Shown piece by piece: positions 39,671 to 63,003 of a stretch of 64,000 nucleotides of DNA. Position numbers and translations under genes: made by a program. A model generated the notes under the pieces. The model made no database searches, was not told the DNA's origin, and saw only the letters and a list, made by a program, of their open reading frames with translations. Position 1 is the first letter of the stretch. Every line of letters begins with the position of its first letter. The stretch covers positions 62,001 to 126,000 of the forward strand of contig CAIFEX010000004.1 in the NCBI GenBank assembly GCA_903789665.1, written 5' to 3'. This stretch comes from an uncultured Clostridium sp. Its GTDB lineage: Bacteria; Bacillota; Clostridia; Clostridiales; Clostridiaceae.

Positions 39671-39695
39671 ATTTTCATCCTCCTTCTGGTAATTC

Positions 39696-40577: not shown

Positions 40578-40600
40578 ACAAACTCATCCTTTCAAAATTT

Positions 40601-43356: not shown

Positions 43357-45231
43357 CTATTTAAACTTATATATCCCCGTGCCTGTATTGCTCTCAAACA
43401 TATTGTAGGCCTCAAGTGCCTGAACGGCTTGTTCTGTTGCCATGGCATTATATCCTGAATCCTTTGTATGGCCGAATCCTCCGCCAGGTACTTCAAAACT
43501 CAAGAGTGCGTCCAGCGCCGTCTTCCCGTTTTTGGTGAAAGCGGCACTTGCAGGGTCTATTCCATTTGCACAAAGTCCCATTATAACCTGAGAAATACTT
43601 TCGCTGTTGCTTACATTATAGGAAGAGAATCCACCGTCGCTGTCCTGCATCGAGGAAAGTTTGTCTACTGCTTTATCTACAGCATCCTTTACCGCAGCTT
43701 CGTCTCTATAAGGTGCCAGAGCTATAAGAGCCATACCGGTCATATCCGGATCTGCACTGTCTTCTGCATAAGACCAGCCATTGTCGGCAGTTTTGTTTTC
43801 CAGAATTTTATCTATAAGTTTATCTCTTGTCCAAACAGCACCTGAAGGTGTTTCAAAGTTTCCGGAATCAAGGGCAATAAGTGCAAATACATAGGCATTT
43901 ATCCCCTGATCATCAATTCCAGTATTGTTGTATATCTTCTCTATAAGATTGTAGCCCTGAAAATTGGCAGGATCTTGTCCCACTGCCATAAGTGCCAGGG
44001 TAATTCTCTCATAATCCGTAGGTTTTGACAAGTTCCCTTTTGCAGCAGCTATGCTGTTTGAAAGGTTTGTAAGATAGCTTGACGGCACCGATGCACCATA
44101 TCTTGCAACTGCCAGTGCCTGCCAGTCATCCAGGTTCCCGTCTGAAAGTATCTTATTTACTGCAGCACTTAATGAACTGCTTACAACAGGGGATTTCCCC
44201 TCATACAGATCTACAATTTTAGTCAGGATGGTATCAGGTACTACAATAGTCCCTCCTAAAGCTGTAAGAGCAGTATCTTTCTCCATATTTGACACTATGA
44301 AGCTGGCGGTGTCGTCGGAAATATCTTTATATATAAGCACCATGGGAGCAGATTCCCTGGCTGCAAGTACCGAACCCGAGAGGGCATCTGCAAATTCATT
44401 TCCAGCAGGCCCGTCTCCTTCTGCTATATATACATTTTTAAAATTCAGATCTGATTTGAAATTTTGCAGTATCGCAAGGTTTGTCGCAAATCTCGTGGCA
44501 CCACCGATTCTCTGTGCATTCGGAAGAGAAGTCTCCAAGCTGTCACTTATGGAGGCAGTTCCGCCGATTACATAGGTTTTGCTTATATTCCTGCCTTTGA
44601 TGTAACTGCTTGTAGCATCCGGCAGGACATCCCTTTCGGATAAAAGTATGGGCATACCCTTGCTGGCAGCTATTGGTGCTATGGAAAGGCTGTCTGCATA
44701 TCCGGCCCCAGAAGCAACCACTATATTGCTTATATTACCTGAATCTCCAAGCTTCCTGGCTATTTCAACAGAAGTTTCATATCTGTTTCTGCCTCCCAGC
44801 CTTTCAGGCTTGATTCCAATGTTCTCCAGCTGAGATATTACATTGTCAGACAGGGAAGCCGTTCCTCCTATCACAAACGCATTTGCAGCTTTAAGTCTCT
44901 TGAGTTCATTTATTGTATTTTCATCCAGAGAATCCTGTCTGGAAAGAATTACAGGTGCATTGTACTTTTTAGCCAGGGGAGCTGCACAGAGAGCATCGGC
45001 ATAACCGTATCCCTGGGCTATAACTACGGTATCTGAACCGTCTTTCCAGCCTTCCTGACTTATCTTAAGTGAAGTTTCAATTCTGTCGCTGCCGTAAATT
45101 CTGTTTTTGGATACACTCACACCTGAGTTTGCAGAAGGTGCCGCATCAGCACGGGCGTCTACGGCAAACCCAGATACTGCAATGCTGGTTGTAAATAAAC
45201 ACACAATAAGTTTGCTAAAAATTTTTTTCAT
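43357..45231 (-). CDS. CWB2 cell-wall protein with alpha/alpha-barrel (intrinsic-factor-like), copy 2
   Basis: A 624-residue secreted protein with a signal peptide (1-29). Three CWB2 cell-wall-binding repeats (~43-335) show the recurring pattern GSDRIETSLKIS, VVIAQGYGYADALCAAPLAK and AFVIGGTASLSDNV. An alpha/alpha-barrel covers ~345-620 (TADNGWSYAEDSADPDMTGM, KLSSMQDSDGGFSS, ATEQAVQALEAYNMF). CWB2 repeats hold C. difficile wall proteins on an anionic polymer. The barrel is the fold that binds cobalamin in intrinsic factor. It is the last gene of the operon, 21 bases after the DUF4430 gene, and is a paralogue of the protein at 28729-29967 with a different N-terminus. Confidence 0.8.
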   Translation of the reverse strand: MKKIFSKLIVCLFTTSIAVSGFAVDARADAAPSANSGVSVSKNRIYGSDRIETSLKISQEGWKDGSDTVVIAQGYGYADALCAAPLAKKYNAPVILSRQDSLDENTINELKRLKAANAFVIGGTASLSDNVISQLENIGIKPERLGGRNRYETSVEIARKLGDSGNISNIVVASGAGYADSLSIAPIAASKGMPILLSERDVLPDATSSYIKGRNISKTYVIGGTASISDSLETSLPNAQRIGGATRFATNLAILQNFKSDLNFKNVYIAEGDGPAGNEFADALSGSVLAARESAPMVLIYKDISDDTASFIVSNMEKDTALTALGGTIVVPDTILTKIVDLYEGKSPVVSSSLSAAVNKILSDGNLDDWQALAVARYGASVPSSYLTNLSNSIAAAKGNLSKPTDYERITLALMAVGQDPANFQGYNLIEKIYNNTGIDDQGINAYVFALIALDSGNFETPSGAVWTRDKLIDKILENKTADNGWSYAEDSADPDMTGMALIALAPYRDEAAVKDAVDKAVDKLSSMQDSDGGFSSYNVSNSESISQVIMGLCANGIDPASAAFTKNGKTALDALLSFEVPGGGFGHTKDSGYNAMATEQAVQALEAYNMFESNTGTGIYKFK

Positions 45232-45252
45232 ATTAATCCCTCCAAATTTAAT

Positions 45253-46038
45253 TTAAAAACTGCCTTTCCCCCAATCCATTCCATAGCCATCGTTAATACC
45301 ATCTGCAAGATATCTCCATACGACCACATCTCCAGTATGCCATACCCACTGGCCGCTGCCTATGTTGGGTTTGTGAAAGACGCTGTCTCCCTTTTTCTTT
45401 ACGTAGTAACACCATCCTGAGAGTTTTCCTGCTTTTTTCTCTTCAAGTCCATCTATAGCGGCAAAATACAATGTAGAAGCAGATCCCGTCGCCTTATAGC
45501 TTATCTTGGCACTGTCCAAAATCCTCTCCGTTATATATCCCACTGTCTGACCGTTCATACTGCTGTCGATGTTCCTCGAAATGATCATCTTGTTTCCATG
45601 AACGGTATCTACTACCTGAAAAGTTGCACTGCTCTCCGGATCCGAAGCGCTCACCTTCACTATACCATTCGAAGTTACAGTAGAAGGATTGCTGGACTTT
45701 GAAGAAGTATTTCCTGATCCGCCTTTTTTTGATTTTGTAGAAGAATTTATAGAAGATTTACCTTTTTTGCCCGCAGAAGATGAACCTATTCCAGCAGAGC
45801 TATTCGCCGCATCAGTGTTTTTTACATTTTTCCCATCCTTATTTGCCTTTGCGGTGTTTCCCGATATGTTCCCGGCCCCTGAAGATTTGTCCTGACTTTC
45901 CTGGGCACTCATCTGCTTGTTGGTAAGTGTGTTTGAATATATTGAATTTGCTTTTAGGCCAATGGCAAACAGTACGGCAAATACGGCAAAAGCCACCAAA
46001 GCTATTATATATTTTTTCTTGTTTTCCTTGATTTTCAT
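45253..46038 (-). CDS. Membrane-anchored DUF4430 protein, copy 2
   Basis: A 261-residue paralogue of the protein at 30016-30723. It has a basic start, one anchor helix (~9-28), a Ser/Gly/Lys-rich linker (~40-130) and a DUF4430 domain (~140-250) with MNGQTVGYITERILDSAKISY, STLYFAAIDGLEE, GWCYYVKKKGDS and GDVVVWRYLADG. The layout puts a transcobalamin C-terminal-like domain on a flexible stalk outside the membrane. It is coupled to EcfS (20-base gap) and to the barrel protein downstream. Confidence 0.82.
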   Translation of the reverse strand: MKIKENKKKYIIALVAFAVFAVLFAIGLKANSIYSNTLTNKQMSAQESQDKSSGAGNISGNTAKANKDGKNVKNTDAANSSAGIGSSSAGKKGKSSINSSTKSKKGGSGNTSSKSSNPSTVTSNGIVKVSASDPESSATFQVVDTVHGNKMIISRNIDSSMNGQTVGYITERILDSAKISYKATGSASTLYFAAIDGLEEKKAGKLSGWCYYVKKKGDSVFHKPNIGSGQWVWHTGDVVVWRYLADGINDGYGMDWGKGSF

Positions 46039-46058
46039 AATTCAAAAACCACCTCCTA

Positions 46059-46748
46059 TCACTTCATATAACTGATAATCAATTTTCTCTTGTACCTTTC
46101 AAATACATGTAAGAAACCGTTGTAAAATATTATGGAAAATATAAAGGAACTTCCCCCATGAAGCACATCAAAAGTCAGCCCGGACACATATCCTCCTATG
46201 AATGTCCATAAATTTAAAGGTTTGACAAAACCAATTACGTACTGAAGATCCATAATCCAGTCAAACATGAATCCAAAGAAGAAGCATGCCACGGAAAACT
46301 TGAAAGCTGAAACTTTCTTTCCCTTCTTCCCCCAAAATCCGGCTATGATTCCGACGAGCCCCCATGAAAACATCTGCCAGGGAGTCCAGGGACCTTGTCC
46401 AAAAAAAATATTGGACAAAAAAGCTGTGGTGCTCCCCACCAGGAATCCATCATAGGGTCCGAAAACAAATCCTGTAAGTGCGACAAGGAATGTAACAGGT
46501 TTTACATTCGGTATGGGGGCAAAAATAATCCTCCCCACAGTGGCAAAGGCACTTAAGGTAGCTATGATCGCTATTTCCTTGGTACCTGCATTGCTCTGCT
46601 CAAAGTAAAAATAACTCAGGAAAAGTATTACAAATACCCCTACCATGCACATGGTAGAAATTCCAGTCTGGAAATCACTCTTTACAGTAAGCGCCATGAG
46701 AACTGCTATTATGGCAGCTGTAACCGCAATTATGACCTTTTTTATCAT
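46059..46748 (-). CDS. ECF transporter S component, copy 2
   Basis: A 229-residue integral membrane substrate-binding subunit with about seven helices and the same conserved blocks as copy 1 (KEIAIIATLSAFATVGRIIF, IPNVKPVTFLVALTGFVFGP, FFGQGPWTPWQMFSWGLVG). The ATG overlaps the ecfA stop by 4 bases. With EcfA and EcfT from the same operon it would form a complete importer. The substrate is predicted to be cobalamin or a corrinoid because the operon lies downstream of a B12 riboswitch and its surface proteins resemble intrinsic factor. Confidence 0.88.
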   Translation of the reverse strand: MIKKVIIAVTAAIIAVLMALTVKSDFQTGISTMCMVGVFVILFLSYFYFEQSNAGTKEIAIIATLSAFATVGRIIFAPIPNVKPVTFLVALTGFVFGPYDGFLVGSTTAFLSNIFFGQGPWTPWQMFSWGLVGIIAGFWGKKGKKVSAFKFSVACFFFGFMFDWIMDLQYVIGFVKPLNLWTFIGGYVSGLTFDVLHGGSSFIFSIIFYNGFLHVFERYKRKLIISYMK

Positions 46749-48373
46749 ATCTCACACCTTCTAACAGCATCTTCCAGAGTAAATATGCTTCTGTCCTTTT
46801 CCCTGAGGAGCTTATTCATTGAAGTGGTATAGAATATACCGTCCCCCAGTACCTTTCCCCTGCTGCCATCTGCCACAACAGTACCGTTGAACATTATCAT
46901 GTATCTCCTGCAAAAACTGCTGGCAAAATCCGTGTCATGAGTTACAAGTACGATTGTAGTTCCCCTGTCATTTAACTTTTGAAGCATCCTGCCGAGTTTG
47001 TCCTTGAGGGCACTTTCAAGTCCCCGGGTAGGTTCATCCAGAAGGATCATGTCAGGCTGGAGCACAAGTATTGTGGCTATGGCCACTCTCTGCCGCTGTC
47101 CGCCGCTCAGATCCCTCGGGTTTTTGTCTTTAAATTCATATATTTCAAGTTCCTTTAGAACATTTTCCACAATTTTTTGATCATATATATCATAGTTGTC
47201 CATAGTAAACCTGACTTCTTCATACACACTGTTCTTGGACAGGTAATCGTTGGGGTTCTGTGATACATAACCTATATGCTGGGCTATTTCCCTTATGCTC
47301 ATTTTTCTTATTTCCTTTCCATAGAGTTTCACGCTGCCGCTGTAAGCCTTAAGACCCATAATGGATTTTAAAAGAGTACTTTTCCCCGCACCGTTTGCAC
47401 CCATTATGCTTATGAACTCTCCCTTTTTTATCTGGAAATTCAGATCGGAGAGAACCTCCTTGGAACCATATTTACAGCCCATTTTTTTCACGGAAAGTAT
47501 GGCCGGCTGATCTTTTTCGGCAGCCGCCGCCTCTTCGTGTTTTTCCATCTTAATCGGCGTATTCAGGACTTTGACCCTGGCATCTTTAAAATTCCGCGGC
47601 ATATCTTTAAAGCCAAGCTGTTTAAAAAATTTCAGGTAGTCTGGCATAAACATATACTGTTTCTCGCTGCAGTTGCAATAAAAATCTTTTTTATCCTTAA
47701 ACAGCTGCAGGCTGCCCCTGTTCATGACAGCTATGGAGTCCACAGTGTCAAACCACCTGTTAACCCTTTGTTCTATGACTATTATGGTTATCCCCAGTTC
47801 CTCATTTATTTTTTTCACAATATTCAGCATCTCTTCTGCAGAAGAAGGATCCAGCTGGGACGTAGGCTCGTCCAGTATTATGCAGCTTGGCATGTATACA
47901 AGAGCTGAGGCCACCGCAACCTTTTGCTTCTCACCGCCGGAAAGGGAAGTCACGTCCCTGTCTGCCAGATCGAGTATTCCCGTAAACTGAAGCGCCTCAT
48001 AAACCCTCCTCTTTATAATTCCTTCATCCACCCCTACATTTTCAAGTCCGAATGCCACTTCCCGGTGAACCTTGTTCATCATAAGCTGTTTTTCAGGATC
48101 CTGAAAAACCATGGTTATCTTCTTTGCCCTCTCCTGATGGCTCATCTTGTCTATTGCCTTACCGTCTATTTTTATCTCTCCGCCTATGGTTCCGCCGTAA
48201 AAATTGGGGACAGTTCCGACTATGGCCCTCGCCAGGGTTGACTTACCGGATCCGGATCTCCCGGCCACCAGCAGAAAATCGTTTTTCTCCAGAGACAAAT
48301 TCACATCCTTAAGTGCTCTTTCCTTCTCCAGGGGATACGTGAAATTCAAATTATTTACCTCTATATACGACAT
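46745..48373 (-). CDS. Fused ECF transporter ATPase (EcfA-EcfA), copy 2
   Basis: A 542-residue fusion of two ABC ATPase domains. Domain 1 has GRSGSGKSTLARA, LSGGEKQKVA and CIILDEPTSQLDP; domain 2 has GANGAGKSTLLKS, LSGGQRQRVA and MILLDEPTRGLE. It powers the EcfS/EcfT pair. The gene overlaps the 3' end of ecfT by 23 bases and has AGGAGAGGGAA before its ATG, as in copy 1. Sequence similarity to copy 1 is high throughout. Confidence 0.93.
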   Translation of the reverse strand: MSYIEVNNLNFTYPLEKERALKDVNLSLEKNDFLLVAGRSGSGKSTLARAIVGTVPNFYGGTIGGEIKIDGKAIDKMSHQERAKKITMVFQDPEKQLMMNKVHREVAFGLENVGVDEGIIKRRVYEALQFTGILDLADRDVTSLSGGEKQKVAVASALVYMPSCIILDEPTSQLDPSSAEEMLNIVKKINEELGITIIVIEQRVNRWFDTVDSIAVMNRGSLQLFKDKKDFYCNCSEKQYMFMPDYLKFFKQLGFKDMPRNFKDARVKVLNTPIKMEKHEEAAAAEKDQPAILSVKKMGCKYGSKEVLSDLNFQIKKGEFISIMGANGAGKSTLLKSIMGLKAYSGSVKLYGKEIRKMSIREIAQHIGYVSQNPNDYLSKNSVYEEVRFTMDNYDIYDQKIVENVLKELEIYEFKDKNPRDLSGGQRQRVAIATILVLQPDMILLDEPTRGLESALKDKLGRMLQKLNDRGTTIVLVTHDTDFASSFCRRYMIMFNGTVVADGSRGKVLGDGIFYTTSMNKLLREKDRSIFTLEDAVRRCEI

Positions 48374-49253
48374 ATTCCCTCTCCTCGCTATTTAAAATTA
48401 TGGTTACAGTAATTGCTATTATAAAAATCAAAATCAAAGCTATACCTATATTAAAAAAGTTTACAGCAGTCACGCCGTCGTATATGTCAAATTTCACCCA
48501 TTCCTTAAACTGGGCCACGCCAAAAAGTACCATGAGGGCAATGCTGAGCCCTATCACCTGCCAGTCCCTGCTTTTAAGTTTCTGCCTTTCATACACACTC
48601 CTGTGTCCGCTCAAGAATCCCCTCACATAGGCAGATTCACCTATATTGAAGGATCCCTCCATTGAATCCTCCAGAAGTACGGACATTACCGGAATATAAC
48701 TTGCAGCTTTTTCCCTGGCCTTTTTCTTGTCAAATACCACTCCCCTTATCTCATAGATTTCCTTGAGGCTTTTAAATCTGTTTTTAAGGCTCGGCATAAG
48801 TTTAAAACTTATCATGAGCATGAGGGTTGACTTGGGCATTATGGAAGAAAAATAGGAAACCGCCCTGTCTGAATCGATCATGAGTTCAAGTATCAAAAAC
48901 AAATATATAACCGCCAGAAATTTAAAACACATTATGATCGCATAAATTGCAGCCTCCAGCGTGAATCTCTTGTGGAAAAGGTAGAAGAGAGTCGTACTTC
49001 CGGAACTTACAAAAAGTACATTCAGCGCTATTATAAAAATTGCAATTGGAATAAAATAATAAATGGCCGTCTTAAATTTCCTCTTTTCCCTGCAAAACAG
49101 TATTATTCCCACCATAAATACATACACCGAGGCAAGCACCACAGGATTGTCCGTAGAAAATATAATTATCATCATGGAAAGGAACACCAGTGAAGCAGTC
49201 AGCACGTGATACTGCTTGAAATCTATATAATGTCTTATTTTTTCACGTTCCAT
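48351..49253 (-). CDS. ecfT: ECF transporter transmembrane component T
   Basis: A 300-residue EcfT protein with N-terminal helices, a cytoplasmic coupling region and one or two C-terminal helices. The two coupling motifs that dock into the ATPases appear as YEIRGVVF (~168) and AYVRGF (~213), each with the conserved Arg-Gly. It bridges EcfS and the fused EcfA. It is the only intact ecfT in the window, so it may also serve the ecfT-less first module. Confidence 0.9.
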   Translation of the reverse strand: MEREKIRHYIDFKQYHVLTASLVFLSMMIIIFSTDNPVVLASVYVFMVGIILFCREKRKFKTAIYYFIPIAIFIIALNVLFVSSGSTTLFYLFHKRFTLEAAIYAIIMCFKFLAVIYLFLILELMIDSDRAVSYFSSIMPKSTLMLMISFKLMPSLKNRFKSLKEIYEIRGVVFDKKKAREKAASYIPVMSVLLEDSMEGSFNIGESAYVRGFLSGHRSVYERQKLKSRDWQVIGLSIALMVLFGVAQFKEWVKFDIYDGVTAVNFFNIGIALILIFIIAITVTIILNSEEREYVVYRGK

Positions 49254-49281
49254 CTTTTTTCACTTCCTTTTATAACTGCTT

Positions 49282-49312
49282 AAAGAATGGCGGAAAAATC
49301 CCGCCATTCTTT
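49282..49312 (-). terminator. Hairpin between the surface-protein gene block and ecfT (attenuator-like)
   Basis: AAAGAATGGCGG pairs perfectly with CCGCCATTCTTT around a 7-base loop, in the 75-base gap between ecfT and the CWB2-DUF4430-Big_2 gene. On the minus strand it follows ecfT's upstream neighbour... that is, it lies downstream of no gene other than the start of this one; in transcription order it comes after 49329 and before ecfT. The U-run is weak, so partial read-through to ecfT is likely. Confidence 0.5.
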
Positions 49313-49328
49313 AAAGGATTTTATAGAT

Positions 49329-51617
49329 TTATTCTACCATAAATTCGGGTATTTCTATTTTGCTCGTGCTGGATGATCTTATATACCCATGATATTTACC
49401 TGGTGCAAGAACCGTAGTTGAATCCATGATTCCCGTAGATTCAGGAGATTGATCTATATATGCAAGATTTCCGTCTCCATCATAAAGTTCAAAAGTAATA
49501 TCATCTGAAGTATTCTCACTTTTGGCATAAATATTCACAGTCTTATCTGTTCCCTGGGAAATGGTCAAATCAAGTCCTCCCTCATGAACTTCCTGAATAA
49601 TTTTTCCCGGAGACTTGTCTTTTACCTTTACAGTACAAGTATCAGTTTTTCCTCCATCTGAGGTCTTAACTGTTATAACCGCAGTACCTGCCTTTTCACC
49701 AGTGACAAGGCCATCCGAATTCACAGATGCTATAGAATCGTCACTGCTGGACCAGGTTAATTTCTTATTGGCGGCATTTGACGGAGCGACAGCTGCTTCA
49801 AGCTTTTCGGTTTTTCCAACCTCCAAATCTGTACTGGATTTGTTCAAAGTTACACCTGTTACCTTGTCGGGGTTAACCGCCCCTGATACCGTGACATCAC
49901 AGACGTCTTCATTATCTGAAGCATCGTAATTTACCTTAAATCCCTTCGTATTGTCTATGGACTCTGCAGTTATAGCCGCCGTTCCGGAGCCAACTGCCTC
50001 AACTTGTCCGTCATCATCCACTGTTGCCACCGACTCATCGCTGCTGCTCCAGACTATATTCTTGTCCGTAGCATCAGAAGGACTTACAGCTGCACTTAAA
50101 GTTTCGGAGTCACCCTTATCCATATCAAGGCTGCTTTTATTTAGTTTCACTGAATCCACATCTCTAAAACAAGTTGTATCATTGGCACCAAGTACATAGA
50201 TCCAGTGTATGCTCTCCCCTCCATGAAGGGTTTCCTTTTCATCACCACAGCTGTATTCCGGGAAGTTTCCGTTTACACTGTACTTCCAGCCGCTCTGGTT
50301 GGATTTCCCGCCTCCCCGGGGCCTGTCAAATTCCCTTTGTCCGTTTATACTCTGCACATAGATCTGGGAACCAGTACCCTCGTAGTAAATGGGAATACCT
50401 TTATCATCAAGGGTTTTCTTTAAAACATCAAAAACCGTATCACCCTTGTTAAAAGAAAGGTTGGACTTGTTTACAATATTTCCCTTATATCCGTCAATTA
50501 CAAGCGACACATGTTCACCATCGGGGACAGGAGTAACAGGTACAACAGGACCTATACCTTCATTGGGGTTCTCGCCGTTATACAAACTCTCAATAGCATT
50601 TGGAACTGCATCAGGTACTACAAGAGTTCCCCCAAGTGCTGTAAGCACAGTCTTGTCAGACATATTCCGAGTTATAAAATCCGCTGTATTTTGAGTTACA
50701 GTCTTGTAAATAAGCACCAATGGTGCAGACTTCCGGGATGCCAGGACTCCTCCCGAAAGAGCATCAGCAAATTCATCCCCATTGGATCCATCCCCTGCCG
50801 CTATATAGACATTGCTAAAATCAAGATCAGATTTGAAATTCTGAAGTATATCAAGATTAGTATCAAATCTGGTAGTTCCTCCGAGTCTCTGGGGATTTGG
50901 AAGAAAATTTTCAAGTCCCGTCGTGATAACTTCAGTGCCGCCCAATACATAAGTCTTATCTATATTTAAACTCTTTATGTAGCTTTCAACTTTCTCGGGA
51001 AGACTGTCACTTTCCGTAAGAAGTATCGGCCACCCTTTTGCCGCAGCTATGGGTGCCATGGAAAGGCTGTCTGCATACCCGGCCCCGGAAGCAACCACTA
51101 TATTGCTTATATCACCTGAATCTCCAAGCTTCCTGGCTATTTCAACAGAAGTTTCATATCTGTCCAGGCCGCCTATTCTCTCAGTATCCACATCAATGTC
51201 TTTAAGCTGGGCTATTACATTGTCTGATAGAGAAAACTCCCCCCCTATAACGAAGGCTTTTTTTGCATTGAGCCTTTTAATTTCAGCTATGGTGTCACTG
51301 CCCAGCGCATCCTGCCTGGAAAGGATTATAGGTGCATTGTACTTCTTGGCAAGAGGTGTTGCACAGAGAGCATCGGCATAGCCGTAGCCCTGGGCTATAA
51401 CCACTGTGTCCGCACCATTTTTCCAGCCGTTTTGACTTATCTTGAGTGAAGTTTCTATTCTGTCACTTCCAGAAAGCCTCTCTTTGGTTATGGATACATC
51501 AGCACCTGCAGACCTGGATCCATTTTGACCGGAAGCATATACATTCCCTCCAATACCGGATACTGCAATACCTATGACAAATAAGAAAGTTATAATCTTG
51601 CTTAAAATCTTTTTCAT
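49329..51617 (-). CDS. CWB2-DUF4430-Big_2 cell-wall protein
   Basis: A 762-residue secreted protein with a signal peptide (1-28). Three CWB2 repeats span ~35-330 (closely similar to those at 43357-45231). A DUF4430 domain lies at ~370-480 (GDTVFDVLKKTLDDKGIP, GSQIYVQSINGQREFDR, GWKYSVNGNFPE, GESIHWIYVLG). Two Big_2 Ig-like domains follow (~495-580 and ~585-665, WSSSDESVATVDDDGQVEAV; WSSSDDSIASVNSDGLVTGE), then a C-terminal beta domain (~675-762). AGGGGGT four bases before the ATG at 51617 fixes the start. It would present the transcobalamin-like domain in the wall, not at the membrane. Confidence 0.82.
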   Translation of the reverse strand: MKKILSKIITFLFVIGIAVSGIGGNVYASGQNGSRSAGADVSITKERLSGSDRIETSLKISQNGWKNGADTVVIAQGYGYADALCATPLAKKYNAPIILSRQDALGSDTIAEIKRLNAKKAFVIGGEFSLSDNVIAQLKDIDVDTERIGGLDRYETSVEIARKLGDSGDISNIVVASGAGYADSLSMAPIAAAKGWPILLTESDSLPEKVESYIKSLNIDKTYVLGGTEVITTGLENFLPNPQRLGGTTRFDTNLDILQNFKSDLDFSNVYIAAGDGSNGDEFADALSGGVLASRKSAPLVLIYKTVTQNTADFITRNMSDKTVLTALGGTLVVPDAVPNAIESLYNGENPNEGIGPVVPVTPVPDGEHVSLVIDGYKGNIVNKSNLSFNKGDTVFDVLKKTLDDKGIPIYYEGTGSQIYVQSINGQREFDRPRGGGKSNQSGWKYSVNGNFPEYSCGDEKETLHGGESIHWIYVLGANDTTCFRDVDSVKLNKSSLDMDKGDSETLSAAVSPSDATDKNIVWSSSDESVATVDDDGQVEAVGSGTAAITAESIDNTKGFKVNYDASDNEDVCDVTVSGAVNPDKVTGVTLNKSSTDLEVGKTEKLEAAVAPSNAANKKLTWSSSDDSIASVNSDGLVTGEKAGTAVITVKTSDGGKTDTCTVKVKDKSPGKIIQEVHEGGLDLTISQGTDKTVNIYAKSENTSDDITFELYDGDGNLAYIDQSPESTGIMDSTTVLAPGKYHGYIRSSSTSKIEIPEFMVE

Positions 51618-51668
51618 ATTAACCCCCTCAAAAAACTTAATCGTAATTATCAATCAGACAGAAATGAA

Positions 51669-53645
51669 TTATTTACCAGATCCGGCAGGCATATCTATAA
51701 CATTTGAAAGAGGTTTCATACCTTCAATACTGTCCCAGACAAAGGTCTTTATTTTATATATACCTTCTTCCGGTATTTTGAGCATATTGCTCAAAGTAGA
51801 TGACCTGCCCGCTTCAACTTTCTGTTCTCCGGATACATAAGTTATGAATTTGCCGGTTTCATCATAAAGTGCAGTTATAAGCGAAACGTTCTGAGAAGAA
51901 TCTGACACATTCTTTGCCTTTACAGATACTTTCTTATAAGATGCATCAGGATCACTTATTTCAACAGTTTGTCCCACTTTTCTTTCTGCCGCAGCCAGTT
52001 TATCTTTCGTACTCTGGGCAATAGATGCCTGTTTTGCACTGCCAAGTGCATCATAGAGAACCTTTGCCGCATTGATTTTTTCTTCATCTTTAGAAGTTAT
52101 GGCATCGGGAAGTGCCTCTATGGCGTTATTTACAGGTACGGTAGAATTTTCAACATCCCTGCAGTCAAATATGGAATTCCTTCCTTCATAGGCCCTTACA
52201 AGAGAATCCAAGCCACGACACATCTGTGTGGGCTCATAGGTGGCACTGTCATAGGTTGACCATTTGTTTAGAGCTGCATCTATCATAGTTTTACCGCATT
52301 TAATATATTTTTTATCAAAAATATTTACATTATTGCTGAATTTCCCATCTTCTGTTTTATTCTTCCCATTTCCTTCTGCGGCCATTCCAATAGTCATATA
52401 TACCTGGGCATTTGTCCATGAATTGTTATAATCATTGCCCATACCACCCCAGAAGGATCCAAGATAAGTTTGAGAATTTGAAAAATGATCAAGCCAATAT
52501 TCTACAGCTTGTTTTACATCATAATATTTATCTTCCTCTTTTGCATTTGAATCATAATATGCTGCAAGTGGCTGCATCTGCATAGTTCCCATATCAGGAA
52601 CAGCATTTGATAAAATAGTAGAACCGTCCGCTGCTGTATTACCACGTGCGAGATCAGCTAAAGAATGTATCTTATCTTCTATATCATTTTCATCAACATG
52701 TTTTTCATCCTTGGGTACACTGTTTATATAATCCTGTGAAGTCAATGCCAATATAGCATATTGTCTTGCAAATGTCTGACTAGATGCATTTAAGTAATCT
52801 TTGTTCGAAATAATATCAATCAAATTAGAACCATCATAAGTTATATCCCTTGGATCATAGCCCACAGCTGTAACTGCTAAAGCTAACTTTTCCCATTCCG
52901 TCATCTTTACATCCTGAGCTTTTATACCTTCAGCTTTCATCCTCCTTAGTTCATCTTTTACAGCTATAATCCAATCATCACAATATTTTTCACTTACACC
53001 TTTATAACCAGAACGTGCAGAAGAAAACATTTCCCATGTATTATTTTTCAATTCAATACTGCCTTCACCTCCATCAAAACTTGCTTTACTACCGCTCCAA
53101 TTAAAGGAAGGTACAGATCCAACCCCAATCTTTAATTTACCATAAAGCATGTTTTCTGCTTCTTTTGCCTCTTCAATTTGTCCTTCTTCATCTATTGCAG
53201 GTGTTGAATTATCAATCAAATTTCCTACAGCCGATACATTCTTTAACACAAATTTATACCTGCCATTTTCAACAGATTCGGGAGTGATTTTTACTTTACT
53301 TGGATCAATATTCAAGGGATTCACAGGAACAACCCCAATAGTAGGTGCATTAAAAACTACATCTTTACTGCCGCTATATGTGGCTTTAACATTATATTGT
53401 TTTAGTAAATTTTTATATTCACTAGATTCAGGAACAACTTCTATATCTTCTAACTTCAAGCTTGTCTTGAGGTTGTCTTCTACACTCTTATTTGTATCAT
53501 AGACTTTGTCTTCTGCCGGTATTTTTACATCTACATCAATTTCAGTCGGTGTTGCAGTATCTGCCAGAGCCACACAAGGCGCAAATATTCCAAATGAAAA
53601 CAGAAGCACTACTGCAAGGACTACCTTTTTCCACAACTTTTCCAT
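51669..53645 (-). CDS. Large secreted alpha/alpha-barrel surface protein
   Basis: A 658-residue protein with a signal peptide (1-28, ALADT). An N-terminal beta-rich region (~30-200) leads to a helical repeat region (~215-500) that resembles the barrel of the other surface proteins: KLALAVTAVGYDPRDITYDG, FARQYAILALTSQDY, MQPLAAYYDSN, WGGMGNDYNNSWTNAQVYMT. Here the barrel carries longer insertions. A C-terminal Ig-like module (~560-650) with SLITALYDETGKFI and IKTFVWDSIEGMKPLSNVI also occurs in the LRR protein. A cobalamin-binding role is inferred from fold and operon. No cell-wall repeat is visible. Confidence 0.7.
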   Translation of the reverse strand: MEKLWKKVVLAVVLLFSFGIFAPCVALADTATPTEIDVDVKIPAEDKVYDTNKSVEDNLKTSLKLEDIEVVPESSEYKNLLKQYNVKATYSGSKDVVFNAPTIGVVPVNPLNIDPSKVKITPESVENGRYKFVLKNVSAVGNLIDNSTPAIDEEGQIEEAKEAENMLYGKLKIGVGSVPSFNWSGSKASFDGGEGSIELKNNTWEMFSSARSGYKGVSEKYCDDWIIAVKDELRRMKAEGIKAQDVKMTEWEKLALAVTAVGYDPRDITYDGSNLIDIISNKDYLNASSQTFARQYAILALTSQDYINSVPKDEKHVDENDIEDKIHSLADLARGNTAADGSTILSNAVPDMGTMQMQPLAAYYDSNAKEEDKYYDVKQAVEYWLDHFSNSQTYLGSFWGGMGNDYNNSWTNAQVYMTIGMAAEGNGKNKTEDGKFSNNVNIFDKKYIKCGKTMIDAALNKWSTYDSATYEPTQMCRGLDSLVRAYEGRNSIFDCRDVENSTVPVNNAIEALPDAITSKDEEKINAAKVLYDALGSAKQASIAQSTKDKLAAAERKVGQTVEISDPDASYKKVSVKAKNVSDSSQNVSLITALYDETGKFITYVSGEQKVEAGRSSTLSNMLKIPEEGIYKIKTFVWDSIEGMKPLSNVIDMPAGSGK

Positions 53646-53794
53646 TTCCTCTCCCCCTTATTATTAAGTTCAATTTACAATCTACAATCAACAATTAAAA
53701 ATGTGAAACAACGCTCTTAATGAATTCCCACCATATTCTATCGTTACTTCAACATTTTTAACTGATCATTATAATAGATTAACCGCTATACACT

Positions 53795-56700
53795 TTAAAA
53801 TATTATCTCACAATTTGGAAGTGATTTTTTTAAATCCTGCTGTTTACTTTCGTTTATTGTTATTCCATACAACTTAAGACTTGTTAAATTCGTTAAGCCT
53901 TTTAATGAATTTAAATCAGTTATTCCAGAATTTCTTGATAAATCAAGAGACTGTAAATTAGTCAATCCACCCAATGGAGTTATATCGCTTATCTGATTGT
54001 ATCCCAAATCGAGGTTTGTTAAATTGGTTAAATCTTTCAATATACTTACACCAGTTATTTGATTATGACTTAAATCAAGTGATTTCAAGCCAATTAATTT
54101 TTCTAGTGGAGTAATATTACTTATCTCATTACTATATAAGAAAAGGCTCTGTAATTTAGTCAGGTTGCTCAGTGCACTTATGTTCTTTAATTTTTTACCA
54201 TTTCCTTGTCTTAAATCGAGTAACTGTAGATTAGTTAAATTCTCCAGTACATCTATATTGTCCAGTTGAGTATTACTTAAACTAAGAGACTGTAGGCCCG
54301 TCAATCCACTTAATGGAGTTATATCACTTATTGGATTATCATTTAATTCAAGAGACTTCAAACTTTCCAATTCACTTAAACCACTTATATCAACTAACTT
54401 GTTACCATTTAAATTAAGATCCGTTAAACTTGTTAAACCCTTTAGTTCATCTGCCTCATCTATTTTTTCTATTTCATTACCACATAAATTGAGAGTCGTA
54501 AGAGCACTTAACCCCTCCAATCCACTTATATCAGTTATTTGATTTCCCATTAAATCAAGTAATTTCAAGGCAGATAAATAATCTTTGAGTGGAGTTATAT
54601 TACTCACTTTATTATTCTGCAAGTTAAGAGACTGTAAATTCTTCAAACCACTTAATGAACTTATATCAGATATTTGATTATAGCTTAAATCCAAGGTTGT
54701 TAAATCTTTCAGATTACTCAGTGCACTTATATCACTTATTTTGTCATCAGTTCCCCATTGAAAATTTTTATTTAAAAGTAAAGTTTGCAAATTAGTTAAT
54801 CCTTCTAGTCCTTCTAAATCATCATTTATGGGATTATTACTTAAATCAAGATACCTTAAATCTTTCAGCTGACTTAATACACTTGTACTCTTCAATTTAG
54901 TAGCTCCCAATTTAAGTATCTGCAACTTAGTTAAATCTTCCAGCTCACTTAAATCACTATTAATATTCCATCCATTTCCGCTTAAATCAAGTTCTTTAAG
55001 GTTTTTCAAATCTTTTAATCCACTTGTATTGATAAATTGTCCGCTATCAAGACTAAGCGTTTGTAAATTAAGACATTGTAAATTTTTCAAACCACTTAAA
55101 AGGCTTAAATCATTTATTGTAGTTCCACTTAGATTAAGAGATTCCAATTGTGGCAATTCATTCAATAAACTTATACTCTTCGTATTTAAATTTCTATTGT
55201 CGGCTAAATTAAGAGTTTTAAGTGAAGTCAAATTTTCAATTCCCCCAAGATCCACTATGTTTTTTCCCCTGACATCCAATTCAGTTATTTTATCTACATC
55301 ACTTTTATGTAAGGTTCCAGTAGGTTTCTTTATATCATCTCTTACAGCTTTTTCTAAATCTGAATCGGTAAAAGTTACTTCGCTGTCATCATCACTACTT
55401 CCACCATCTATAACAGATATAGTTTTAACATCGGAAAGAGGTTTCATATCCTCCAGGCCATCCCATACAAAAGCCCTCAATTCATAATTTCCCGTATCCG
55501 GAATACCTATAGTTCCAATCAGAGAAATCTGTCCTCCCTGTTCAACATCTTCCTTGTTGCTTGTACACTTTATAAAGTTATTATTATCTTTATCAAACAG
55601 CCCCAGCATGAGTGAAACTGGCTGTTCTTCACCAGAATTATTCACAGCCTTTACAATTACTTTAGCATCATCACCCAATTTAAAAGAAGTTTTACCTTCA
55701 GGCAGCTCAGTACTTATCTCTATGGGACTGGCACTACTATCGGTGACTATTACAGTACAAGTGGCAGTTTCCTTTCCATCTCCTGCAGCCGCAGTTATTA
55801 TCGCCGTACCTTTGGACACTGCAGCTACATTCCCATCCTGGTCAACTGTGGCTACTTCGGGTTTATTACTTGTCCATGCCACTTCCTTGTCAGTGGCAGT
55901 TTCGGGAGTAACAGTTGCCGTGAGCTTATCGGTACTTCCTTTTTCCAAAGTTGTATTTGTTTTATTAAGATTTATCCCGGTTACAGGTACGTCTTCATCG
56001 GTAACTGTAACAGTACAAAATCCACTGTAGGTATCGTCGGAAGTCTTGGCATATATAAATGCAGTACCAGGACTCACCGCTGTAACCTTCCCATTTTCAT
56101 CAACTGCAGCCACTTCATTATTACTACTTCCCCAATTAACAGTCTTACCATCTGGAATCTGCAAAATAATTGCTTCCTCTCCTCCAGTCTTTAAAGTCAG
56201 TTTATCCTGAAGCTTGGCATCCTCGCCATATAGAAATACTACTCCTGAGGTATCCCCCCACTCTGACTCATCTTCAGGCTTAAAGTTTGTCCCCCGAGTA
56301 TCCACTACAAGATTTATATCTCCACTAAAACAATTTACTCCAAAGCTTGCTACAGAACTAGGAGTTTTTATATACTTCAATGAGGTACAGTCTTTAAATA
56401 CATCATCCCCAACATTCAACAATCCATCATCCAAATTAACTTCTTTAATGCCTGTACAACCATTAAATGCATAACTTTTTATACCAGTAACTCCTTTCGG
56501 AATAGTTATGGAAGTCAAACCAGTACAATTTTCAAAAATTCCAGTAGGGATAATACCTATGTTATCTGGTAAAGAAATTGACTCCAGCGTGGCACATCCC
56601 AGAAAAGCAGAACGTGATGTAGAAAAATAATTATAATAAATCCCAGTGCAACCGCTGAAGTCTAATTTCTTAGGTACTGTCCAGTCAAAATATTTTTTAT

Positions 56701-57091
56701 TAAATCCTTTACTAGTAATAGCTGTATTATTTGATAAATTTATACCGGACACTCCAGTTAAATATTTCATAATTGGCATATCCTCATCTTTAATATCAAG
56801 ATCTGACAGGTCAATATCTCCTGTAATAGATGCAAGGTCAGATGTAGTTAAATCTCCCGTATAGCCGCTGCCTTTATTGGCCGCTTCTGCCAATTTGGTT
56901 TTTAACTTTGCATTATTTATGGCGACAGCTTCTTCTCCACTATCTTCAGTATTCTGCTCACTCACCGCAGGTGTATTGGAATTAAGGCTTTCTGCATAGA
57001 CAGTATTAAGCCTTCCTGTGTCTGCTGCGACAAATGATACGGAACATACTGCAGATATACACAGCAGCATCTCGATTTTCTTCCTCAGCAT
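53795..57091 (-). CDS. Giant leucine-rich-repeat surface protein with Big_2 domains
   Basis: A 1098-residue secreted protein with a signal peptide (1-32). It contains BspA-like LRR_5 repeats (~95-290, SLPDNIGIIPTGIFENCTGL), two Big_2 Ig-like domains (~300-455), an Ig-like module shared with the 658-residue protein (~465-565, RAFVWDGLEDMKPLSDV) and over twenty internalin-type 21-22-residue LRRs (~590-1095, for example LTSLKTLNLADNRNL, ISDISSLSGLKNLQSLNLQN). The C-terminus ends in the repeats with no LPXTG or CWB2 anchor. LRR proteins bind other proteins, so it could be a scaffold or adhesin. It is the first gene after B12 riboswitch 1, which is unusual. Confidence 0.88.
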   Translation of the reverse strand: MLRKKIEMLLCISAVCSVSFVAADTGRLNTVYAESLNSNTPAVSEQNTEDSGEEAVAINNAKLKTKLAEAANKGSGYTGDLTTSDLASITGDIDLSDLDIKDEDMPIMKYLTGVSGINLSNNTAITSKGFNKKYFDWTVPKKLDFSGCTGIYYNYFSTSRSAFLGCATLESISLPDNIGIIPTGIFENCTGLTSITIPKGVTGIKSYAFNGCTGIKEVNLDDGLLNVGDDVFKDCTSLKYIKTPSSVASFGVNCFSGDINLVVDTRGTNFKPEDESEWGDTSGVVFLYGEDAKLQDKLTLKTGGEEAIILQIPDGKTVNWGSSNNEVAAVDENGKVTAVSPGTAFIYAKTSDDTYSGFCTVTVTDEDVPVTGINLNKTNTTLEKGSTDKLTATVTPETATDKEVAWTSNKPEVATVDQDGNVAAVSKGTAIITAAAGDGKETATCTVIVTDSSASPIEISTELPEGKTSFKLGDDAKVIVKAVNNSGEEQPVSLMLGLFDKDNNNFIKCTSNKEDVEQGGQISLIGTIGIPDTGNYELRAFVWDGLEDMKPLSDVKTISVIDGGSSDDDSEVTFTDSDLEKAVRDDIKKPTGTLHKSDVDKITELDVRGKNIVDLGGIENLTSLKTLNLADNRNLNTKSISLLNELPQLESLNLSGTTINDLSLLSGLKNLQCLNLQTLSLDSGQFINTSGLKDLKNLKELDLSGNGWNINSDLSELEDLTKLQILKLGATKLKSTSVLSQLKDLRYLDLSNNPINDDLEGLEGLTNLQTLLLNKNFQWGTDDKISDISALSNLKDLTTLDLSYNQISDISSLSGLKNLQSLNLQNNKVSNITPLKDYLSALKLLDLMGNQITDISGLEGLSALTTLNLCGNEIEKIDEADELKGLTSLTDLNLNGNKLVDISGLSELESLKSLELNDNPISDITPLSGLTGLQSLSLSNTQLDNIDVLENLTNLQLLDLRQGNGKKLKNISALSNLTKLQSLFLYSNEISNITPLEKLIGLKSLDLSHNQITGVSILKDLTNLTNLDLGYNQISDITPLGGLTNLQSLDLSRNSGITDLNSLKGLTNLTSLKLYGITINESKQQDLKKSLPNCEIIF

Positions 57092-57202
57092 TTCAATCTC
57101 CCCTCCTTAAAATTCAATTTACAACATAAAATCCACAATTAAGATTACCTGTAACAGCAAAAATACCTCACGCTGTGGGGGTATTTTATAATTATAAAAA
57201 TA

Positions 57203-57235
57203 AAAAATGGGGAGCTCAGAGAGTTCTCCATTTTT
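57203..57235 (-). terminator. Terminator controlled by B12 riboswitch 1
   Basis: AAAAATGGGGAGCTC pairs, with two mismatches, with GAGTTCTCCATTTTT around a short loop; the minus strand continues TTTATTTTTATAA. It lies between the aptamer and the LRR-protein gene. Confidence 0.75.
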
Positions 57236-57315
57236 ACTTAAATGTAACTGTTTACCCAAAAAATATAAAGGCAAACAGTCTAGCAATCTATGTAATGTCT
57301 TCCCCTCCGAAAGAA

Positions 57316-57468
57316 TTGACAAAATACCAGGCAGGCCTTCTGGCTTGGATTCATTTTACTCCCCCGTCTTCCCGGATATATAATCCAGTGACATGTTGGG
57401 GTTTCATCTTCCATACAGCAACGGTGGGCTGCAGTGGCTACGATTCCACTTTTCCTTTTAACTGTCAA
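57316..57468 (-). promoter_or_regulatory. Cobalamin riboswitch 1
   Basis: On the minus strand: P1 TTGACA/TGTCAA ends, AAAGTGGAATCGTAGCCACT, GCAGCCCACCGTTGCTGTA (GCxGCCC-CGCxxCTGTA core) and the B12 box AAGCCAGAAGGCCTGCCTGG (57346-57327). Cobalamin riboswitches fold on adenosyl- or methyl-/aquo-cobalamin and normally switch genes off when B12 is ample. The downstream genes are the LRR protein and then probably the whole surface/ECF operon. Confidence 0.95.
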
Positions 57469-57687
57469 ATATAGCAGCACCTGATATAATATATTAAATT
57501 TTCATAAATTATTTAATTCTCTAATTTTTAGTATAAAATATAAATTTACCAAAGTCAACATTATTTTCATTTTATTTTAACAATTTATTCTTGATCTTAC
57601 ATAAAACTTATATGACATTGGCTGTATGCTTACTGCATATAGTTAACTATAAAATCACAAATTAATATACAAAATAATATCTCATAA

Positions 57688-57721
57688 AAAATAGATTGAC
57701 CCACGAGGATCAATCTATTTT
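57688..57721 (-). terminator. Terminator after the 290-residue DUF4430 gene
   Basis: AAAATAGATTGACCC pairs with GGATCAATCTATTTT (one G-U wobble) around a 4-base loop, with U-rich flanks. It ends the upstream unit, so the LRR operon depends on its own promoter and riboswitch 1. Confidence 0.85.
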
Positions 57722-57742
57722 ATAGCCAGTTATTTGTTTTAA

Positions 57743-58615
57743 CTACAGACCAGAAACCGCCATATTAGCTCCAGTTGATGCAGGTGATAACCCCTTAATT
57801 GCTTCATCAACCTGATCTTGTGTAGCCTGCAGTGTCTGTAATGTTGTTAATGCTGCTTTATAGTTTTCATCATTTTTGTTTTCATAATTAGCCATATCTC
57901 TTATAAGATCTGATTTACTTACTCTTTCAAAGAGTGGTGCAACATATACTGAAGTATCCCAGTTGTAGTAACCATCATCAGTAACTTCAGTTGGTAAATA
58001 TGCTGAATTTGCTATTCCAAGATCTGCACCCATTGCTGCCGAGAACTCCCAACGTATTACAGCATTATCTGGAACATTGGATAAAGCAGTTGCTGCAGTA
58101 TAATAAGTTCCATTACTACCATAAGTTTGCGAATCATTTACTGTAAATGTCCAACCAGATACTCCGTCACATTCTTTTTCTCTAAGCCAGCCTGTATCAG
58201 TTATAATTGGCTGATGTAATATATCATTTTTAAAAATAACACCCTTTGTTACAGTATCAAGCTTATCATAAAATTTAGATGGATAATTAGCTTGAAAATC
58301 AGCCTGATTATCTGAATTATCCTGGAATGCTTTTATATACGCATATTGACCCGTAGTTGCATCTATACCAATATTGGGATCAGCCTGTTTCGTTGCATCT
58401 AGTATAGTTTTAGAATCATCCAGTGTAACCTTTACCGGTTTTATAAGTGGGGATTCTCCCAAAACATTCTTCTCCACGTCCACGTAAACTGTTTTCTCAG
58501 AAGCTGCCGCCGCCTGCGCATTGTTTGTAAAAGAAGGTGCTACAACTACCCCAAGTGCCATTACCAGTACGCTTAGAACAAATGCAAATGCTTTATTTTT
58601 CAAAATTTTAAACAT
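57743..58615 (-). CDS. Secreted DUF4430 (transcobalamin C-terminal-like) protein under tandem B12 riboswitches
   Basis: A 290-residue exported protein with a signal peptide (~1-38, NNAQAAAA). The mature part begins with a beta strand (KTVYVDVEKNVLGESPLIKP), then a DUF4430-like domain (~55-205): SKTILDATKQADPNIGI, GVSGWTFTVNDSQ and VPDNAVIRWEFS. A C-terminal helical tail (~225-290, KAALTTLQTLQATQDQVDEA) has FIVAR-like helices. No wall anchor is seen. TTG and ATG codons are adjacent at the start; GGAG is 7 and 10 bases away respectively, and I use the ATG. It is a single-gene unit with two cobalamin riboswitches in its 740-base leader. Confidence 0.8.
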   Translation of the reverse strand: MFKILKNKAFAFVLSVLVMALGVVVAPSFTNNAQAAAASEKTVYVDVEKNVLGESPLIKPVKVTLDDSKTILDATKQADPNIGIDATTGQYAYIKAFQDNSDNQADFQANYPSKFYDKLDTVTKGVIFKNDILHQPIITDTGWLREKECDGVSGWTFTVNDSQTYGSNGTYYTAATALSNVPDNAVIRWEFSAAMGADLGIANSAYLPTEVTDDGYYNWDTSVYVAPLFERVSKSDLIRDMANYENKNDENYKAALTTLQTLQATQDQVDEAIKGLSPASTGANMAVSGL

Positions 58616-58722
58616 CAACTAAGATCTCCTTTCAATTATTTTTCTACCCCTAAACTCCATGTTAAATAGAAAGTGACCTGTTATCATATACCTTATATAA
58701 CATCACCCCCTTAAAATATAAA

Positions 58723-58766
58723 AATCACAGTCCTCTTTTCCTGAAAGTGATTTTGAGGCTGTGATT
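58723..58766 (-). terminator. Terminator of B12 riboswitch 3
   Basis: AATCACAGTCCTC pairs with GAGGCTGTGATT (one mismatch) around a ~19-base loop; the minus strand continues TTTTATATTTT. It lies between riboswitch 3 and the DUF4430 gene. Confidence 0.8.
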
Positions 58767-58880
58767 CAAATATAAACTATTAAAAAGGCATGTCCATTTA
58801 TGCAAAATTATAAATCCTAAGCTTGTCCCCTTATTGCCTTTAGCTCATAATCACTTTTTCATGGAAAGTTATTTATGAAA

Positions 58881-59055
58881 TATCCAGGTTAAGATTTCTG
58901 ACTTATGGCTTTTTCAAGTATGTCTCCGGTTTATTCAAATTTATCTGAAAATTTTGGAGGTATTACTTTGAAATTTCCCATTTACAGCGGCCCGACCGCC
59001 CAGGTTTCTCACCTGGTTTCCCTTTTATAACCCGCTTTGGCAGGTTACCTGAATA
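58881..59055 (-). promoter_or_regulatory. Cobalamin riboswitch 3 (proximal, atypical)
   Basis: On the minus strand: P1 TATTCAGGT/ACCTGGATA, core AAAAGGGAAACCAGGTGAGA, AACCTGGGCGGTCGGGCCGC, CTGTAAATGGG, and a B12-box-like AAGTCAGAAATCTTAACCTGG (58904-58884). The box deviates from the AAGCCAGGAGACCTGCC consensus, so ligand preference may differ from the other two. Its own terminator follows at 58723-58766. Confidence 0.8.
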
Positions 59056-59075
59056 AAAAAACACATCTGTTAAAA

Positions 59076-59100
59076 ATAAAAGACCCTCTTTCGAAGGTCC
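59076..59100 (-). terminator. Terminator of B12 riboswitch 2
   Basis: GGACCTTCG...GGGTCT hairpin followed by TTTATTTTT on the minus strand. It lies between riboswitch 2 and riboswitch 3, so each aptamer has its own terminator. Confidence 0.75.
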
Positions 59101-59187
59101 GCACATATCAAAATCAATATATTTTCCACCTGACATTTAAATGAAAACATATCCGATATACGTCTTTCCTTCCAAAAGAACTGAACA

Positions 59188-59354
59188 TATCACCAAACAG
59201 GTAGGTATACTGGCTTGGAATCATCTTACTCTCCGACCTTCCCAAAGAACTCTGTCTTCAGTGGCACTCCTGGATTTCATCTTCCCTACAGTAGTGGAGG
59301 CTGCAGTGGTTTTTGACCACTTTCCCTATTGATTCTTAAAAAGCCTGTCTGATA
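59188..59354 (-). promoter_or_regulatory. Cobalamin riboswitch 2 (distal)
   Basis: On the minus strand: P1 TATCA...ACAGG with CCTGT...TGATA, core AATAGGGAAAGTGGTCAAAA, CCACTGCAGCCTCCACTACT, GTAGGGAAGATGAAA, and the B12 box AAGCCAGTATACCTACCTG (59216-59198). It is the first of two cobalamin riboswitches before the gene at 57743-58615. Confidence 0.93.
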
Positions 59355-62114: not shown

Positions 62115-62148
62115 AATTTTTACCTTCTTTCACACCATAAGGTGCATG

Positions 62149-62895: not shown

Positions 62896-63003
62896 TTTTT
62901 TCACCTCATAGACAAAATATATTAAACTCAAACACTGCCTCGAGTATAATTATATTGGTAGTACCAATAAATTTCAACTGATTATCCGGCGGGGACCGGA
63001 CTT

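Follow-up and report, generated by a model that had tools for sequence, protein, structure and literature searches.

Organization of the riboswitch-led cluster

A 64,000-nucleotide stretch of the genome of an uncultured Clostridium sp. (GCA_903789665.1, contig CAIFEX010000004.1; 3.03 Mb in 63 contigs), hereafter the window, contains nine genes downstream of three cobalamin riboswitches, genes and riboswitches all lying on the minus strand (Table 1). All three riboswitches score above the curated cut-off of the RF00174 covariance model (31.5 bits), and Pfam, profile searches and predicted models bear out the genes named in the original prediction, which had been made from the sequence alone: those for alpha/alpha-barrel proteins, DUF4430 proteins and the EcfS, fused EcfA and EcfT components of an energy-coupling factor (ECF) importer. 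The arrangement is less uniform than had been proposed, as riboswitches 1 and 2 form a tandem pair before the small first gene, and the long operon is led by riboswitch 3 alone. The eight genes of this operon (57091 to 43357) overlap or are separated by 15 to 149 bases (open reading frames, ORFs, as listed), and their assignment to one operon is inferred from spacing and strand. Since a hairpin and T-run (fold z -5.3; absent from the pattern-scan list) follow the small gene, it is probably a transcription unit of its own. The terminator-like site behind riboswitch 1 is the clearest, and the only one of the three that the pattern scan lists on the minus strand; behind riboswitch 3, a different hairpin wins when a longer stretch is folded.

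Domain content and a hydrophobic segment uphold the division of the importer's partners into wall-bound (CWB2), membrane-bound and secreted proteins. For the small first protein, a control comparison with the barrel profile gave an hhalign probability of 1.0. A Pfam scan found no barrel family in the secreted barrel protein and no BtuF-like family among the nine proteins of the cluster, and profile searches found neither DUF4430 nor a barrel in the leucine-rich repeat (LRR) protein. The window, counting a second, paralogous cluster described below, holds four DUF4430 ORFs and three barrel ORFs, none of them fused, so that the label "intrinsic-factor-like", in the sense of one two-domain protein, does not hold here; the modules are on separate chains, and fused forms are found in relatives. 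We also observed a beta-sandwich segment common to the LRR protein and the secreted barrel protein (2e-29 with the barrel-protein profile), with weak matches to DUF7490 below the cut-off. This segment is perhaps a common docking domain.

Table 1. Features of the two clusters in the window (positions are those of the window)
Feature	Position	Strand	Basis
Promoter-like TTGACA-17-TATTAT, first unit	59376-59404	-	11/12 consensus bases; consensus match only
Cobalamin riboswitch 1 (tandem pair, upstream member)	59183-59363	-	RF00174 93.9 bits, E 4.7e-22
Hairpin and T-run behind riboswitch 1	59100-59081	-	Pattern scan and fold
Cobalamin riboswitch 2 (tandem pair, downstream member; weaker match)	58870-59067	-	RF00174 46.7 bits, E 1.5e-8
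Hairpin and T-run behind riboswitch 2	within 58715-58765	-	Fold z -4.4; absent from pattern-scan list
Secreted DUF4430-like (beta-module) protein	57743-58618	-	No Pfam family; profile 2e-7; hhalign vs DUF4430 probability 95.9, E 5.5e-9
Promoter-like TTGACT-17-TATACT, before riboswitch 3	57558-57530	-	Pattern scan
Cobalamin riboswitch 3 (long-operon leader)	57313-57499	-	RF00174 96.2 bits, E 1e-22
Hairpin and T-run behind riboswitch 3	57236-57196	-	z -3.0 folded alone
Secreted LRR and Big_2 protein (scaffold or docking?)	53795-57091	-	Pfam
Secreted alpha/alpha-barrel protein, C-terminal beta-sandwich	51669-53645	-	Iterated profile 2e-40 and predicted model
Wall-bound protein, CWB2 x3, DUF4430 (1e-13), Big_2 x2	49329-51653	-	Pfam
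EcfT (CbiQ family)	48351-49253	-	Pfam
Fused EcfA-EcfA' ATPase (EcfAA)	46745-48373	-	Two ABC ATPase domains (Pfam); ECF ATPase models
EcfS, CbrT-type S component	46059-46748	-	Profile to 6fnp_A, E 1.8e-25
N-terminal hydrophobic anchor, linker, DUF4430	45253-46038	-	Pfam 2.1e-4, 22.1 bits vs cut-off 23.8; hydrophobic segment at residue 7
Wall-bound protein, CWB2 x3, alpha/alpha barrel	43357-45231	-	SQHop_cyclase_C 3.7e-5 (below Pfam cut-off); profile E 5e-116 (its own seed)
Leader of second cluster: promoter 33230-33202, hairpin 33152-33131, no aptamer between	33079-33262	-	
Fused EcfA paralogue	31427-33079	-	Profile search
EcfS paralogue	30741-31439	-	71% identical to first EcfS
Membrane-tethered DUF4430 paralogue	30016-30723	-	DUF4430 1.2e-8
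Secreted barrel paralogue	28729-29967	-	Barrel 54% identical

Relationship of the modules to cobalamin importers and carriers

The importer was rightly predicted to be of the CbrT type. An EcfS profile built from 32 family members and searched against the PDB (E <= 0.01) matched 6fnp, the S component of ECF-CbrT, over profile positions 51-223, and the sole other match stood at 0.0019. The alignment has the stretches IPNVQPVT and SNIFLGxGxWT in common, and the other parts of such an importer, EcfT and two ATPase domains, are present beside the CbrT-homologous S component. According to the accessible text on CbrT, it transports both cobalamin and cobinamide (PMC5997447).

The partner modules had been expected to have transcobalamin-like folds, and DUF4430 and toroid folds of such kinds indeed appear to be present, but the barrel match is not specific to B12 carriers. 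The top PDB matches of the DUF4430 profile, weak when taken alone, are 3u7z (0.0029), transcobalamin-2 (0.0045) and transcobalamin-1 (0.053). With the barrel profile, squalene-hopene cyclase scores 6.2e-25 and transcobalamin-1 no better than 0.008. The three barrels of the window form one family, to which the secreted barrel of the main cluster belongs weakly (2.6e-4 in direct comparison). Of 53 family members scanned, 46 match the NCBIfam SCO2321 family and 27 a squalene cyclase model, and the top matches in both sequence and structure are squalene-hopene cyclases and drimenyl diphosphate synthases. An aspartic acid residue is invariant in the barrels (D152 of A3 across 53 sequences, D203 of A10 across seven). 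The predicted model of the secreted barrel protein (mean pLDDT 71.7; N-terminus and linker of low confidence) gave no Foldseek match at E 0.001 or better, transcobalamin 2bb5 ranking 13th at E 0.011; for a model of a fused barrel/DUF4430 protein (pTM 0.65), a complement convertase chain and FN3 domains lead. As modelled, the barrel fold resembles transcobalamin but not exclusively, terpene cyclases scoring equal or higher. Two further candidate relationships were rejected: a profile of the secreted barrel and six relatives found no B12 carrier in the PDB (the top hits, at 0.05, were squalene-hopene cyclase or unrelated proteins), and hhalign shows no relation between the barrel and DUF4430 profiles.

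Recurrence of the gene set

Of the order's 225 genomes, 87 have an EcfS match (E <= 1e-20). From 37 of these 87 we picked 40 stretches, one of which (L055) has no EcfS and was excluded, and we also scanned loci from named genomes, taking the best 80 of 581 EcfS relatives; both sets were chosen by EcfS and overlap in organisms, and are not independent samples. DUF4430 and barrel ORFs both accompany EcfS in 36 of the 39 order stretches (DUF4430 only in two, neither in one) and in 66 of the 80 named loci (DUF4430 only in seven, neither in seven). Among the 75 named loci that have EcfT and EcfAA, a small DUF4430 protein is present in 71, in 64 of them together with a barrel. One ORF carries both modules in 49 of the 66 named loci with both, and none is fused in the remaining 17. 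The named sources include Clostridium, Caloramator, Moorella, Desulfotomaculum, Desulfosporosinus, lactobacilli, Paenibacillus, Bacillus and others, as well as metagenome bins labelled Actinomycetota and Thermoplasmata. Two gene orders are frequent: riboswitch, EcfT, EcfAA, EcfS, DUF4430/barrel fusion and small membrane-tethered DUF4430 protein; and riboswitch, barrel/DUF4430, DUF4430, EcfT, EcfAA, barrel and EcfS.

A cobalamin riboswitch lies upstream of EcfS on the same strand (anywhere upstream inside the available stretch) in 28 of the 39 order stretches, directly before EcfT in 15, and in 55 of the 80 named loci. These counts use a riboswitch model, R1, with only 13 base pairs, made from 20 training sequences of these loci; compared with Rfam, it recovers 3/3 riboswitches in the window, 14/14 in eight loci and 7/7 in six loci, some of these being training sequences. 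In L099, L100 and L123 the position of EcfS comes from tblastn, as the ORF scan made no EcfS there. Tandem riboswitches less than 400 bases apart are found in nine sources including the window (L082 rests on a match of 0.022), and the tandem-plus-single layout is common to the window and L057, from the same-genus genome G147. We also note an extreme expansion of the regulon in G224 (contig C39, 72265-141602), where at least nine cobalamin riboswitches lie in about 70 kb around the EcfS-DUF4430 locus L047.

Among the 25 named loci without an upstream riboswitch, 17 have less than 9.4 kb upstream of EcfS; in the other eight (L106, L113, L129, L133, L145, L148, L150 and L151; at least 9.6 kb upstream), an Rfam search found no cobalamin riboswitch, and in L129 and L150 the system genes extend to the stretch edge. 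Of the seven named loci without DUF4430 or barrel, six have less than 2.7 kb upstream of EcfS, L148 being the exception. Five of the loci negative with Rfam (L106, L113, L133, L145 and L151) are of a lactobacillus type and have EcfT-EcfAA-EcfS with DUF4430 and barrel genes, yet no riboswitch, and regulation there would therefore be different. L056 and L073 (EcfT-EcfAA-EcfS-fusion-DUF4430) have no R1 match, and their genomes no RF00174 match under strict filters that lose weak matches. L064 (G220) has an EcfS without DUF4430, barrel or riboswitch in a stretch that extends some 2 kb beyond its EcfT on the upstream side.

A paralogous second cluster and neighbouring genes

The original prediction overlooked a second cluster in the same window (28729-33079), which has EcfAA, EcfS, a membrane DUF4430 protein and a barrel but neither EcfT nor CWB2 proteins. 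Its promoter reads TTGACT-17-TATACT like that of leader 3, and its leader resembles a riboswitch leader of G147 (84% over 56 bp, E 1e-13 in a 1,768-base search) and leader 3 of the window (82% over 49 bp), with no RF00174 match in it by Rfam. The leader hairpin has a fold z of -4.7; the scan lists it on the plus strand only, and the T-run on the minus side is short. Weak Rfam matches around the cluster (ssnA, rli51, snoZ185, MIR5048) fell below gathering scores and were discarded. On a plain reading of these sequences, the second cluster would have arisen by deletion from an operon led by a riboswitch. At E <= 0.001, a protein search of the host genome found no second EcfT of the family encoded in the main cluster, and the second S component would therefore depend either on the first EcfT or on one of another kind.

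Between the two clusters (33263-41419) lies a catabolic-looking set with genes for a CoA-transferase, a DHDPS-like protein, an IclR regulator, ferredoxin/BFD and FAA-hydrolase-like proteins, as well as molybdopterin-binding-like and quinolinate phosphoribosyltransferase-like genes and a 479-residue protein without a Pfam match at 1e-5. Upstream of the riboswitch region are larC and larB (nickel-pincer cofactor genes, 60930-62931), with two small ORFs in between, one of which (60277-60666) appears helix-turn-helix-like by reading. Elsewhere in the window, an M-box magnesium riboswitch (15940-16110, 148 bits) lies upstream of a 420-residue gene on the same strand (14452-15714).

Corrinoid demand and B12 synthesis in the host

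RF00174 matches nine sites of the host genome at E <= 0.001, and each exceeds the cut-off. The genes behind the six outside the window are named here by position and ORF starts rather than by family search. Five of the six precede a CbiM-like cobalt transporter ORF (C3:90906), BtuF/C/D-like ORFs (C11:12313), B12/tetrapyrrole-synthesis-like genes, hemA-hemL-like genes and a methylmalonyl-CoA-mutase-like set. The riboswitch before the latter type of genes (L005:1479-1656) would belong to a B12-dependent enzyme and not to transport or synthesis. Another (L001:7525-7696) precedes a 505-residue ORF, behind which an S-component-like ORF (5014-5604) may belong to a further cobamide-related importer.

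Within the genus, 13 genomes were searched, and EcfS was found in six (the host included) and not in seven. The six have 8-15 RF00174 matches per genome, and the seven 1-3. CdhD is a component of the corrinoid protein of the Wood-Ljungdahl pathway. Strong matches to it (E < 1e-80, a threshold chosen after viewing the match list) occur in all six genomes with EcfS and in none of the seven without, where matches reach 6.3e-14 or worse, or are absent. Across the order, EcfS is present in 14 of 16 genomes with strong CdhD (the exceptions being G115 and G116) versus 73 of 209 others (Fisher 4.6e-5, kinship ignored).

Lack of B12 synthesis was considered as the reason for the system and rejected: over the 225 genomes, EcfS is not tied to lack of CbiD, a marker of B12 synthesis (p 0.15). 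CbiD is present in the host (E 1.2e-98) and in all 13 genus genomes searched. Given these two observations, auxotrophy would be a less likely motive than competition, the salvage of foreign corrinoids or a demand that exceeds what the cell itself makes.

Proposed mechanism and alternatives

Cobalamin or corrinoid uptake is well supported by the riboswitches, the CbrT-related EcfS and the wide recurrence of the gene set. We consider it quite probable that the cluster serves to scavenge cobalamin/corrinoids, belongs to the bacterial transcobalamin-like class (DUF4430 plus alpha/alpha toroid) and has a CbrT-type ECF importer of its own. When cobalamin is scarce, the riboswitches would let transcription through, and when it is plentiful, the terminators would halt it. 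In the wall, corrinoid may be bound and captured by the DUF4430 (beta) and barrel (alpha) modules, secreted or held by CWB2, and passed to the membrane-tethered DUF4430 protein beside EcfS, from which the EcfS/EcfT/EcfAA complex would import it.

An ECF transporter under B12 control could instead move a metal such as cobalt or nickel, the control being feedback on cobalt supply as for cbiMNQO. The CbiQ family membership of EcfT, a weak match of EcfS to CbiM (8.6e-4, below the Pfam cut-off), the nearby larC and larB and the host riboswitch before a CbiM-like ORF would all fit such a role. Metal S components of the CbiM/NikM type, however, have an N-terminal Met-His motif, and Met-His was found in the first 12 residues of none of 127 EcfS ORFs (mechanical starts; fragments and repeated organisms included). 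With the strong similarity of EcfS to CbrT, no metal S component in the PDB search at E <= 0.01, and no role in metal import that we know of for DUF4430 or barrel partners, metal transport appears very unlikely. It is also conceivable that the ECF part alone moves B12 and that the surface proteins, as adhesins or S-layer-like proteins, are controlled by B12 for another reason (e.g. attachment to B12 producers). CWB2, LRR and Big_2 domains are frequent in surface proteins, and the LRR protein carries neither module. But DUF4430 and barrel ORFs accompany EcfS in most named loci, often as simple proteins that have no CWB2 or LRR domains, and DUF4430 is the transcobalamin beta-domain family (PDB profile matches; PMC1796856, in its accessible part), which makes a purely adhesive role improbable.

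The barrels raise a different question, since their top matches are squalene-hopene cyclases and drimenyl diphosphate synthases, and their invariant aspartic acid aligns to the cyclase DVDD stretch (HMMER alignment). They could thus be enzymes of the terpene-cyclase/toroid class, or modify corrinoid at the surface, rather than serve as binding halves. The family has D-P-D-I-T, however, without the last aspartic acid of DVDD (alignment as read), and the barrels are secreted or wall-bound, linked to cobalamin riboswitches and commonly fused to DUF4430 in other genomes. We regard an enzymatic role as very unlikely.

The scavenging system may also be given a more specific form, which we put forward tentatively and with some doubt: a split transcobalamin, in which cobalamin would glue a free beta-half to a wall-bound alpha-half and be passed from beta-half to beta-half to the ECF S component. 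Such pairing across separate chains is mechanistically reasonable because, in animal carriers, the beta domain is the first to bind cobalamin, after which the alpha domain closes, and the two depend on cobalamin for their association (accessible text of PMC11107200). If true, B12 would be relayed across the Gram-positive wall by a system elaborated in bacteria that carry the acetogenic corrinoid protein and need much corrinoid despite their marker of B12 synthesis.

The locus bears on how corrinoids pass the thick Gram-positive wall and on the origin of the animal B12 carriers. Together with its relatives, it offers a testable set: alpha and beta modules that are small, separate and suited to purification and mixing, an S component homologous to a B12-specific one of known structure, and riboswitches from which regulation can be predicted. 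Its association with the acetogenic corrinoid protein hints at the setting in which such a system is of benefit, and the second cluster, whose leader has no aptamer, is a natural comparison for the riboswitch.

Comparison with known systems

The window contains a real, recurrent operon, probably for cobalamin/corrinoid uptake. The core of the original prediction is probably right, but novelty was claimed too strongly. In 2007, Burroughs, Balaji, Iyer and Aravind had already predicted B12 scavenging by secreted Gram-positive transcobalamin-like beta-grasp proteins, which often occur alongside alpha/alpha toroids and in operons that also contain CbiO-like and CbiQ-like genes, and had predicted that animals acquired their B12 carriers from such bacteria (PMC1796856, as for all statements on this paper from its accessible part). 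That no experimental description was known is in line with our own search: the literature searched yielded no experimental study of a bacterial system of this class, although most subscription papers were outside its reach and the absence is unproven.

Vertebrate transcobalamin, intrinsic factor and haptocorrin have the two fold types predicted for the modules of the window but combine them in one chain, against several in the window; sequence similarity is low, and uptake is by receptor rather than by an ECF importer. ECF-CbrT of Lactobacillus delbrueckii (PDB 6fnp) has a homologous S component; in the window, EcfT and a fused EcfA share the operon with extracellular partners, and for CbrT the accessible text mentions no extracellular partner (PMC5997447). 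BtuFCD-type cobalamin ABC importers, of which the host has BtuF/C/D-like ORFs too, share corrinoid import and riboswitch control but belong to another transporter class than the ECF system of the window.

With the clade of 2007, the window shares secreted or surface DUF4430-type beta-grasp domains and alpha/alpha toroid proteins, a CbiO/CbiQ-like operon and paralogous extracellular proteins within one operon (PMC1796856). The paper's hosts usually, as a tendency, lack key enzymes of B12 synthesis, unlike the CbiD-bearing host of the window, and the word "riboswitch" is absent from its main text. The window is an elaborated, split variant of that class, and what is new in it are the alpha and beta modules on separate chains, the CWB2 anchoring, the tandem riboswitches beside a single one, the host with a marker of B12 synthesis, its occurrence alongside the acetogenic corrinoid protein, and a second, paralogous cluster whose leader has a promoter and hairpin but no aptamer.

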